Of a DNA stretch of 38,108 bases, positions 23,546 to 29,683 are shown piece by piece. A program made the translations under genes and the position numbers. Positions within the stretch are counted from its first letter, which is position 1; the number at the start of each line of letters is the position of its first letter. The notes under the pieces are model-generated. The model was not told where the DNA came from. It saw only the letters and a list, made by a program, of their open reading frames with translations, and did no database searches. This stretch comes from Cytophagales bacterium (GTDB lineage: Bacteria; Bacteroidota; Bacteroidia; Cytophagales; Thermoflexibacteraceae). The DNA lies in NCBI GenBank assembly GCA_947457925.1, contig CANGYA010000016.1:1-38108 (forward strand). The letters run 5' to 3'.

Positions 23546-24127
23546 ATGTCTTACTCAGTTTTACTTCGAAATGCTCTACTGCATGGTTTCTTACCCCTTC
23601 TAATTATCAATGTCTGGGTAATTATTTACCACTATGCACTCATGCCGTTACTCGGCAGCAATACCGTATTTGCTTGGGCAGTCATTGTATTAGGCTTGTC
23701 CGAACTACTCTATTTTTTTTATATGTTACTCAAAAAAATTATAGAAGCTGCCCGAAAAAATACGCCTATGTATATTTTTTTGGTTTTTCTATTCCTCAAT
23801 ATGCTTAACGCCATTTATGCCTTTGCATGGAACTATTGGTTGGTTTATACCAGTAATCCCAAGAGTTTTGAGGGAGTTAATCCGCAGTTTACTGCATTTG
23901 AGCAAGTTTTTGAGTTTTTTTATTTCAGTTCTCTTACTTTTTCGTACTTTGGCTACGGTGAAATTATGCCTACCACCATTCCCTCTAAACTATTGGTGAT
24001 GATGGAAATAGGCTTGTCTTTTACGACCATGATTTTTGTGTTGGCAGATTTTGTAGGTTTGCGGGAATCTTTGTTGCAAGAAAATGAAAACTTGCATACT
24101 ACAAATCATTCACATAATTCGCATTGA
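23546..24127 (+). CDS. Ion-channel-like membrane protein with unusual filter
   Basis: Encodes 193 residues with about four hydrophobic helices (15-35, 42-65, 75-100, 145-170). Between the last two lies FYFSSLTFSYFGYGEIMPTT, placed as in two-transmembrane potassium channels: a pore helix, then a filter-like GYGE (136-139) and a following helix LLVMMEIGLSFTTMIFVLADF. Canonical potassium channels read TVGYGD at this point; SYFGYGE keeps GYG but changes the flanking residues. It is probably an Ion_trans_2-type channel or a diverged relative. It starts 12 nt after the EI24-like gene, so the two membrane proteins are probably made together. The C-terminus is short and His/Asn-rich, with no regulatory RCK domain. 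Confidence 0.7.
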   Translation: MSYSVLLRNALLHGFLPLLIINVWVIIYHYALMPLLGSNTVFAWAVIVLGLSELLYFFYMLLKKIIEAARKNTPMYIFLVFLFLNMLNAIYAFAWNYWLVYTSNPKSFEGVNPQFTAFEQVFEFFYFSSLTFSYFGYGEIMPTTIPSKLLVMMEIGLSFTTMIFVLADFVGLRESLLQENENLHTTNHSHNSH

Positions 24128-24220
24128 TGCCAATTTAAGCAATTCTTTATGAAACATTTAGCCCTAAAAACCGTTGCAAGTAATAAGTTTTTGCTTTTTG
24201 AGTAGTGGGGCAAAACAAAT

Positions 24221-24293
24221 GTACCACAGACTTTAGTCTGTGAACACACAACTGTACGATAATCAACTATTCACAGACTAAAGTCTGTGGTAC
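24221..24293. repeat. REP-like double hairpin, copy 1
   Basis: Perfect 23-nt inverted repeats (24221-24243 and 24271-24293), each of which also folds on itself (CACAGACT-TT-AGTCTGTG), around a 27-nt core that includes GATAATCAACTATTC. The same unit in inverted orientation is at 29612-29683. It resembles REP/BIME elements mobilised by RAYT-type (TnpA-REP) transposases; none is encoded here. Confidence 0.75.
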
Positions 24294-24331
24294 AAATGAT
24301 TTTAATTCACTTACTAAACCTGATTTTTGCT

Positions 24332-24751
24332 ATGTTTGACCGTTTATTTAATATATTGAAAGCCAATTTGAATAGTGCTTTAGATAAGGAAGATGTGGGC
24401 GACAAAACCGTAGATGAAATTTATGCTGAATATTTGAAGAAAATGAAAGAAGAAAGTCAGCAAAGTTATACACAGACTCCGCCTAATTATCAATATCAAA
24501 ACTATCAACAACCGCCTCAACAAGAACCGCCAAAACCTCAATACTCACAAGAAGAATTAGAGGCGTGGAAGGCATTGGAATTACCGCCAAATTCGCCTTT
24601 TGACCAAGTAAAGGCAAGTTACAAGACATTGATAAAAAAATATCACCCCGACAAGTTTGCAACAGAACCAACAAAATATAAAACAGCCTTAGAAATTTCA
24701 CAAAAATTGAACAAGGCGTATGACTTTTTGGAAAAAAAATATGGCAAGTAA
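24332..24751 (+). CDS. J-domain protein with PspA-like N-terminal helix
   Basis: Encodes 139 residues from MFDRLFNILKANLNSALDKE. Residues 1-40 form an amphipathic, probably membrane-binding helix that aligns without gaps to the start of the PspA protein encoded next (11 of 17 positions identical over F-RLFN--KAN--S-LD). Residues about 45-75 are a Tyr/Pro/Gln-rich linker. Residues about 77-139 are a compact J domain with the HPD tripeptide (105-107) that activates Hsp70 ATPase. An ATG at 24287 would extend the frame, but that start overlaps the REP-like element and adds a non-conserved leader. The stop is 12 nt before pspA, so the two are co-transcribed. Inferred role: recruiting DnaK to PspA assemblies at the inner membrane, like the chloroplast CDJ2-VIPP1 pair. 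Confidence 0.85.
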   Translation: MFDRLFNILKANLNSALDKEDVGDKTVDEIYAEYLKKMKEESQQSYTQTPPNYQYQNYQQPPQQEPPKPQYSQEELEAWKALELPPNSPFDQVKASYKTLIKKYHPDKFATEPTKYKTALEISQKLNKAYDFLEKKYGK

Positions 24752-24763
24752 ACCTTTACAATT

Positions 24764-25540
24764 ATGTTAGACATCTTTAAAAGATTATTCAACTTGAGTA
24801 AAGCCAATGCCAGCAGCAAACTTGACCAAGTAGAAGACCCCGCACAACTTATAGAACAGCAGATTAGGGAACTGAAACAAGCCTTAGCCGAAAGCCTCCG
24901 AAGTTTGGCAGAGGTGAAGGCTTCGCATATACGTGCAAAAAGAGAAATAGACCAACAACTCACATTGGGCAAAGAATATGAAAAAAAGGCTATTTTATTG
25001 TTGCAAAAAGCTCAAATAGGAGAAATAGAACAACGCCAAGCAGACTTATTGGCTGCACAAGCATTGGCACGCAAAGAAGAAATAGAGCAAAGAGTAAGTG
25101 GAAATGTCAAAAACCTATCGGGCTATGAGGCAATGGTGCAAAAATTGGAACAAAACGCCATGCAGCTACGCCAACAGATAGAGGTGTGGGAACAAGAACT
25201 ACGTGCCTTGAAAGCCAGAGCCAAAGTAAGTGAGGCAACTCGCAAATTGAATGAACAGTTGGCAGGCATGAACATTAACGGCACTGTGAGTTTGATGAAC
25301 AAACTACGTGATGACGTAGAGAAACAAGAGGCTTTGGCAGAATCTTATACAACGGTGCTGGGTAACCAAAATTCCTTAGATGCAGAAATTGACAAGATTT
25401 TGGGCGGTAGTTTTTCGCCAACGGTCAATGAAAAACTGAACCAACTCAAAGCCGAAGTGAACCACGCCCCTTCACTTTCTACGAATGACGACATAGAAAG
25501 TCATTTGGAAAAACTAAAAGAAAAATTGAAGAAAAGTTAG
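24764..25540 (+). CDS. pspA: PspA/IM30 (Vipp1) family membrane-scaffold protein
   Basis: Encodes 258 residues starting MLDIFKRLFNLSKANASSKL, the amphipathic N-terminal helix of the family. The DQVEDPAQLIEQQIREL segment that follows is the classic family signature. The rest is almost entirely coiled coil (AEVKASHIRAKREID through RKLNEQLAGM), followed by a C-terminal tail from about 195. PspA/Vipp1 proteins form ESCRT-III-like helical or ring assemblies that support damaged membranes. No PspF, PspB or PspC gene is visible, so regulation differs from Escherichia coli. It is the second gene of the J-domain operon and is followed by a strong terminator at 25569-25603. Confidence 0.92.
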   Translation: MLDIFKRLFNLSKANASSKLDQVEDPAQLIEQQIRELKQALAESLRSLAEVKASHIRAKREIDQQLTLGKEYEKKAILLLQKAQIGEIEQRQADLLAAQALARKEEIEQRVSGNVKNLSGYEAMVQKLEQNAMQLRQQIEVWEQELRALKARAKVSEATRKLNEQLAGMNINGTVSLMNKLRDDVEKQEALAESYTTVLGNQNSLDAEIDKILGGSFSPTVNEKLNQLKAEVNHAPSLSTNDDIESHLEKLKEKLKKS

Positions 25541-25568: not shown

Positions 25569-25603
25569 AAGGTGTTATCTCTAAAAAGATAACACCTTTT
25601 TCA
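25569..25603 (+). terminator. Predicted terminator of the J-domain/pspA operon
   Basis: A 12-bp perfect stem (25569-25580 with 25587-25598) followed by TTTTTC-type U-tract, 29 nt after the stop. Confidence 0.75.
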
Positions 25604-29611: not shown

Positions 29612-29683
29612 GTACCACAGACTTTAGTTTGTGAATAGTTGATTATCAAATAGCTAATTTTCACAGACTAAAGTCTGTGGTAC
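29612..29683. repeat. REP-like double hairpin, copy 2
   Basis: Same unit as 24221-24293 but inverted: arms 29612-29634 and 29661-29683 differ at one position, and the core begins ATAGTTGATTATC as in the reverse complement of copy 1. It lies upstream of the 29732 sensor gene. Confidence 0.75.

Follow-up and report, generated by a model that had tools for sequence, protein, structure and literature searches.

The stretch of DNA analysed here, referred to as the window, comprises 38,108 nucleotides of contig CANGYA010000016.1 from the Cytophagales bacterium assembly GCA_947457925.1. It carries a gene for a short J-domain protein whose N-terminus resembles the amphipathic membrane helix (alpha0) of PspA/Vipp1 proteins and, downstream on the same strand after a spacer of 12 nt, a gene for a PspA/IM30 protein. 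We use alpha0-J as a provisional name for this J protein and its relatives, taking their N-terminal 18–22 residues as helix alpha0. We observed a shared architecture, helix similarity, sequence conservation, gene linkage to pspA and co-occurrence with PspA, which together suggest a dedicated steering of Hsp70 to PspA assemblies. The gene positions and the 12-nt spacing given in an earlier note on this DNA, made from the sequence alone, proved correct. The features of the locus are as follows.

24332..24751, + strand: alpha0-J gene, 139 aa, stop included (open reading frame (ORF), Pfam, and homologue N-termini for the start)
24332..24388, + strand: PspA/Vipp1-type amphipathic helix alpha0, residues 1–19, MFDRLFNILKANLNSALDK (BLASTP, profiles, shuffles)
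24389..24547, + strand: Tyr/Pro/Gln-rich variable linker, residues about 20–72 (column conservation, low predicted local distance difference test (pLDDT) values)
24566..24736, + strand: J domain, residues 79–135 (Pfam DnaJ, Foldseek)
24644..24652, + strand: HPD motif, residues 105–107 (alignment of 41 relatives)
24764..25540, + strand: pspA, PspA/IM30 (ESCRT-III superfamily) protein, 258 aa (Pfam, AlphaFold2 (AF2)/Foldseek)
24764..24826, + strand: alpha0 region of PspA, residues 1–21 (BLASTP against the J protein)
25569..25598, + strand: terminator-like hairpin 3' of pspA

A longer GTG-started frame is also present for the J gene, and the ATG at 24332 was taken as the start because it is supported by the N-termini of homologues. 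The downstream protein belongs to the PspA/IM30 family by its match to PF04012 (PspA_IM30, E = 5.9e-32, 111.5 bits, over the cut-off) and by its PspA/Vipp1 fold, the closest Foldseek match of its AF2 model being Vipp1 (6zvr, E = 6e-6). The two genes are consistent with a two-gene operon, a reading suggested by the terminator-like hairpin that stands after pspA. A single full-length DnaK is encoded in the window's genome.

The J domain of the window protein was identified with Pfam (DnaJ, E = 1.1e-8), and both its intact HPD motif and the Tyr/Pro/Gln-rich linker are present as the earlier note described them. DnaJ was matched in 41/41 family members, and the HPD motif is invariant across the 41 aligned relatives. 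No other Pfam family scores over its cut-off in the window J protein, and the further DnaJ domains (G/F, zinc finger and C-terminal domains) were not found in it with Pfam; by its architecture it is predicted to be a class C J-domain protein. Its best NCBIfam match is DjlA, far under the cut-off (37.7 vs 162 bits). The top Foldseek matches of its AF2 model are J domains (best E = 0.049), and the linker is mostly modelled with low pLDDT. Conservation amounts to 2.48 bits per column in the helix (residues 1–18), 1.48 in residues 19–72 and 2.89 in residues 75–136, and the hydrophobic moment of residues 1–18 is 0.50. The window J protein was also considered as a PspA/IM30 family member in its own right and was rejected, as PF04012 reaches 12.1 bits against a cut-off of 33.9 and covers residues 2–43 only; on this sequence measure it is not a member of the PspA family.

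BLASTP aligned residues 1–19 of the J protein with residues 4–22 of the window PspA without gaps, with 11/19 identical and 15/19 similar positions (E = 1e-4 for that single comparison). The earlier note gave the count as 11 of 17. A scan of the window's whole genome with PF04012 returned five matches. Three are PspA-family proteins that exceed the cut-off, a fourth is weak (E = 0.037), and the fifth is the window J protein, which lies under the cut-off (E = 1.6) and aligns to profile positions 2–40. We constructed a profile of canonical PspA N-termini from the PspAs of other loci, with no J proteins among its rows (17 rows for the background test, 16 rows for whole-genome scans), and compared J proteins with a background of 4349 N-termini from which 167 J- or PspA-like ORFs had been excluded. 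The window J protein scored 24.0 bits (E = 5.8e-6), while the best background N-terminus scored 6.2 bits, and 36/40 distinct J N-termini scored above the entire background. Two rows of the profile (L111 and L114) derive from PspAs whose genes neighbour a J gene in divergent orientation, and these were kept in the whole-genome scans. When they were removed from the background test, the window J protein scored 25.8 bits against 5.7 for the best background N-terminus, again with 36/40 above it. With profiles of other PspA groups, 19/40 (second PspA group) and 18/40 (J-linked PspAs) of the J N-termini were above background.

When 98 whole genomes from the order to which the window belongs were scanned in six frames with the 16-row profile, the matches at E <= 0.01 comprised PspA proteins, J proteins in ten genomes (G000–G004, G007, G013, G032, G035 and G089) and a stretch in two f7 genomes. 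The f7 matches (L233 and L234) are internal to an Nramp-family transporter (Pfam Nramp for L233) and were rejected. In 39 further genomes, picked for carrying a J gene, the matches at this threshold were PspA and nine J proteins alone. A match in G098 that narrowly missed this threshold (E = 0.0101) is internal to a 640-aa ORF, away from the N-terminus, and was likewise rejected. The 69 distinct J N-termini averaged 14.7 bits. Shuffles that preserved the hydrophobic or polar class at each position brought this mean down to 0.3 bits and shuffles that preserved the charge class to 2.9 bits, and 0/100 shuffled sets reached the real mean. Several J proteins start with LFDRL or LFKRI, and the alpha0 start given in PMC13051332 is MGLFDRxxRV. 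These results confirm that the similarity of the J N-terminus to canonical PspA/Vipp1 alpha0 exceeds plain amphipathicity. The N-terminal helix, which the earlier note had proposed looking for in relatives, is present in most of the orthologues examined.

The neighbourhood of the J gene was compared between 74 alpha0-J loci and 47 control loci with other J-domain genes. Thirty of the alpha0-J loci came from the 98-genome search, 25 from a 395-genome sample of the phylum, and eight from 292 sampled genomes of the phylum to which a Gastranaerophilales metagenome-assembled genome belongs; the remaining 11 came from a separate search, which was the sole source of all 47 controls. Excluded from the 74 were L031 and L032 (genomes judged identical to those of L002 and L010), L092 and L095 (both the window itself), L147–L152, L154, L156–L158 and L160 (genomes already counted via L033–L038 and L045), and L164, L167, L168, L170–L178 and L180–L185 (mostly dynamin-J proteins) together with L207 and L209, all of which lack a PspA-like N-terminus; matches in the 98-, 292- and 395-genome sets for which no locus was returned were also excluded. 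Retained were L188, whose start codon is unplaced, L165, with 277 nt on one side, and L018, L027, L028 and L040, whose helices score under the best background. A pspA gene lies within 1.5 kb of the J gene in 46/74 alpha0-J loci and in 0/47 other J loci (Fisher p = 3.7e-14, with loci that are related and not independent). Eleven of the control loci have under 1.4 kb on one side; among the others, which extend 1.4 kb or more in either direction, pspA was found in 0/36. In 43 of the 46 loci pspA is downstream on the same strand; it is upstream on the same strand in one (L197) and divergent in two (L018 and L027). In eleven of the 46 a CesT_Tir gene separates the J gene from the pspA that follows, and in one the order is PspA, PspC-domain protein, J and then S-adenosylmethionine decarboxylase. 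The alpha0-J gene thus has the conserved gene neighbourhood with pspA that marks a partner of the Psp system, and the neighbour search across Bacteroidota that the earlier note had called for finds the pair conserved far beyond the window genome. On the strength of this linkage, the background profiles, the shuffles and the whole-genome scans, we rejected chance or plain amphipathicity as the source of the helix similarity.

In a tree of J domains from which the helix columns were left out, 6 changes account for the alpha0-J label, compared with a mean of 40 for shuffled labels, so that the PspA-type helix goes with a coherent J-domain lineage; the forks of this tree are poorly resolved because it rests on few columns. 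With the window protein as query, 53/98 genomes of the order had a match (E <= 0.001), some of them to generic J domains, and 42/98 had a strong J match (1e-8 or better). PspA is present in 41/42 of the genomes with a strong J match and in 18/56 of the remaining genomes, counts that are uncorrected for kinship. The 395-genome sample contains 28 genomes that match the family profile at E <= 1e-16, and 25 of the 27 loci newly fetched from it qualified as alpha0-J, the other two being left out of the count. In the 292-genome sample, 260 genomes match at E <= 1e-9, mostly through generic J domains, and PspA-like N-termini occur in small Gastranaerophilales-like genomes and in four larger ones. Single cases were found on contigs labelled Wallbacteria and Chitinivibrionales. 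One further contig is labelled Clostridia; it is very like the Gastranaerophilales contigs and for this reason may come from a mislabelled bin. All 28 genomes in which the alpha0-J gene is not adjacent to pspA have a PspA-family match, over the cut-off in 27.

The earlier note had proposed that the co-chaperone uses the same helix as its client, and as a rule this did not hold. Across 29 adjacent pairs, cognate J and PspA helices scored 24.3 on average, compared with 23.3 for non-cognate combinations within a clade and 24.6 for combinations with other clades, and the cognate mean was reached in 105/2000 permutations within clades and 1005/2000 free permutations. Compared with the canonical PspA helices of other loci, J helices scored 51.1 (best) and 43.9 (median) on average, which makes them about twice as close to canonical helices as to the helix of their neighbour. 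The window pair is unusually alike (56), and the window J helix scores 60 with the best canonical helix. A J helix that closely mimics that of its neighbour is therefore not supported across the 29 pairs, and since cognate pairs are no closer than non-cognate ones, co-assembly via matched neighbour helices is not a rule of the family. As J helices are closer to canonical than to cognate helices, the sequences indicate that the J protein keeps a canonical PspA/Vipp1-type helix and that many J-linked PspAs have drifted.

Several other observations were made in the window and in the samples. Upstream of the J gene, by 204 nt and on the same strand, is an Ion_trans_2 channel gene (Pfam, 23546–24127); a potassium channel is named in one class of PspA operons in a 2024 survey of PSP systems (PMC11237479). 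A palindromic repeat with the core CCACAGACTTTAGTCTGTG immediately precedes the J gene, at 24212–24302, and recurs at about 29615–29680. It has 82 forward and 82 reverse matches genome-wide (up to one mismatch) and 0 matches for the reversed control, and looks like an element of the repetitive extragenic palindromic (REP) or miniature inverted-repeat transposable element (MITE) type. A second PspA of the window's genome, starting MGIFSRLFNIGKAEAHNAID, is encoded behind a CesT_Tir_1 gene on contig C56 (L241:201-1451). In other lineages, by contrast, J, CesT_Tir and PspA form one gene row.

Four larger genomes of the cyanobacterial phylum (L165, L166, L169 and L179) encode alpha0-J-like proteins away from pspA, with the start MGDIFKRLVNLAKAEISH in L165 and close variants in the other three, and have one PspA-family match each. 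A deaminase-like ORF adjoins the J gene in L166, L169 and L179 (Pfam deaminase for L169, the others by eye). Related J proteins with a different N-terminus, MLTKMLLEIFQAIAEDP and close variants, were found in Cytophagales and other Bacteroidota records (L039, L041, L043, L046 and L050) with no pspA within 1.5 kb; by sequence they appear to be a sister family that has a different targeting part. In the cyanobacterial-phylum sample, long ORFs encode a dynamin-family GTPase with a C-terminal J domain, as confirmed with Pfam (Dynamin_N and DnaJ) in L164 and L167 and seen from similar sequence in L168, L170–L176, L178, L180, L182 and L183. These dynamin-J proteins would be a second membrane-remodelling protein linked to Hsp70, and a single search of the open-access literature showed no description of the fusion.

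We consider it probable that alpha0-J is a J co-chaperone of the Psp system that brings DnaK to remodel or disassemble PspA assemblies. The helix alpha0 would fold on stressed membrane, negatively charged or curved, of the sort to which PspA is drawn. The J domain tethered to it would bring DnaK to the PspA assemblies at that membrane and trigger their ATP-driven remodelling or disassembly, by which PspA would be recycled. We infer every step of this bacterial function by analogy, and membrane binding and curvature sensing by alpha0-J from peptides: according to the peptide work in PMC13051332, isolated PspA/Vipp1 alpha0 binds negatively charged membrane, senses curvature, and is unstructured without lipid.

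The closest likeness is to the chloroplast CDJ2-HSP70B-CGE1 system of Chlamydomonas, in which, as proposed for alpha0-J, a J protein and an Hsp70 act on a polymer of the PspA/Vipp1 family. PMC6882379 describes the assembly and disassembly of VIPP1 by HSP70/CDJ2/CGE1, with ATP present for the breakdown of rods, and E. coli DnaK as a working substitute for the algal HSP70. By inference alpha0-J may work like CDJ2; CDJ2 itself was reported in PMC3720927 to be without a cyanobacterial homologue. The PSP systems surveyed by Ravi et al. (PMC11237479) include PspA with CesT/Tir-type chaperone partners and with PspC, as here, and the terms DnaJ, J-domain, J domain, HSP40 and rhodanese do not occur in the main text of that survey. 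A likeness to Vps4 and ESCRT-III lies in the proposed recruitment of an ATPase to dismantle an ESCRT-III-type polymer; Vps4 is an AAA-ATPase, as noted in PMC13051332, whereas alpha0-J would use DnaK via its J domain. Membrane-bound class C J proteins such as DjlA resemble alpha0-J in having a C-terminal J domain and, as predicted for alpha0-J, a membrane-directed N-terminus. DjlA has a transmembrane anchor, and alpha0-J differs from it in its PspA-type amphipathic helix and its other architecture. Clathrin uncoating by auxilin and Hsc70 is like the proposed role in that a J protein targets Hsp70 to a membrane coat, with a coat and a targeting module unrelated to those of alpha0-J and PspA. An analogy of auxilin to IM30 is drawn in a passage of PMC6882379. 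The earlier note knew of no description of the J-pspA pair, and we found no description of an alpha0-J/PspA family in the open-access literature, a search that hardly covered subscription papers and preprints.

Several observations weigh against the proposed role. A rhodanese gene stands in place of pspA beside the J gene in 12/74 loci (L194, L198–L206, L208 and L210), and a further 16/74 have neither a Psp-related neighbour nor a rhodanese within 1.5 kb. In some of the genomes counted as having a strong J match, the helix is missing from the J protein. The N-termini of L028, L027, L018 and L040 fall under the best background with the canonical profile, as do those of L018, L021, L027 and L040 when L111 and L114 are left out, and the J proteins of 30/39 J-selected genomes miss E <= 0.01 with the helix profile. 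With Pfam, PspA_IM30 was detected weakly in 2/41 J proteins (E = 0.14 for the window protein, best 0.0065), a weak detection that we attribute to the shortness of the module. The helix at residues 3–18 of the AF2 model has low confidence, which agrees with the lipid-dependent folding of alpha0 in the peptide data of PMC13051332. Finally, J helices do not match the helix of their own neighbour, which speaks against matched lattice contacts.

This last point bears on an extension of the proposed role, in which the J helix is part of a two-component polymer. According to PMC8281802, alpha0 forms the lining of the lumen in Vipp1 rings and is stacked from one rung to the next. Alpha0-J might supply a canonical alpha0 in trans, as a minority subunit of the luminal layer, to J-linked PspA subunits of which many have a drifted or shortened alpha0, and a trigger for disassembly by DnaK would thereby be built into an ESCRT-III-like coat as an Hsp70-based substitute for Vps4. 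We regard this extension as doubtful, entry of the J helix into the polymer being less likely because cognate helices are unmatched. If it were true, ATP-dependent turnover of the PspA lattice would be set by the J:PspA ratio.

An alternative to the co-chaperone role is membrane co-targeting alone, with the helix as a general anchor to stressed membrane, where DnaK would come to the aid of membrane proteins that misfold or are mistranslocated, alongside PspA and without acting on it. The isolated alpha0 suffices for membrane binding in the peptide experiments of PMC13051332, the J helix is unlike that of its neighbour in the 29 pairs, and 28/74 alpha0-J genes, a count that also tells against the co-chaperone role, are away from pspA. 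A secretion theme appears as well, since two opened f52 clusters of J, rhodanese and sigma-54 activator genes run into SecD, with SecF in the one scanned for it. However, linkage to pspA recurs in separate lineages, alone or with CesT/Tir or PspC, and PspA is present in all 28 non-adjacent cases. This recurrent linkage and co-occurrence argue that PspA itself is the target, and we hold co-targeting alone to be unlikely.

Less likely still, and in our view improbable, is that the helix is a regulatory mimic that competes with or tunes PspA signalling, for example through a PspF-like activator, with DnaK resetting the complex. A sigma-54 activator is encoded downstream of the J gene in 10 of the 12 rhodanese loci, in which the rhodanese has a hydrophobic N-terminus. 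Three full-length activators that were examined start directly with the AAA+ domain, without an N-terminal regulatory domain and in this like PspF, and two that were scanned with Pfam end in a Fis-type helix-turn-helix. Against this, their identity as PspF was rejected at 276 to 289 bits versus a cut-off of 443.55, they score higher with other sigma-54 activators than with PspF, and no sigma-54 activator lies directly beside the window J-pspA pair. Convergence, in which an ordinary amphipathic helix resembles PspA by chance or composition and the linkage is incidental, is very improbable and strongly disfavoured. In its favour, amphipathic helices are common, and this one is short and weakly seen by Pfam; against it, class-preserving shuffles abolish the similarity, whole-genome scans pick out these J proteins, and none of the control J loci is linked to pspA.

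PspA and Vipp1 are bacterial ESCRT-III proteins, and eukaryotic ESCRT-III is dismantled by Vps4. How PspA regulates its assembly without an AAA ATPase was stated to be unknown in the 2024 survey (PMC11237479). A conserved J protein that carries the membrane helix of PspA and travels with psp genes makes PspA turnover directly testable, and alpha0-J offers for this an HPD mutant as an internal control and, in its helix, a separable targeting module.
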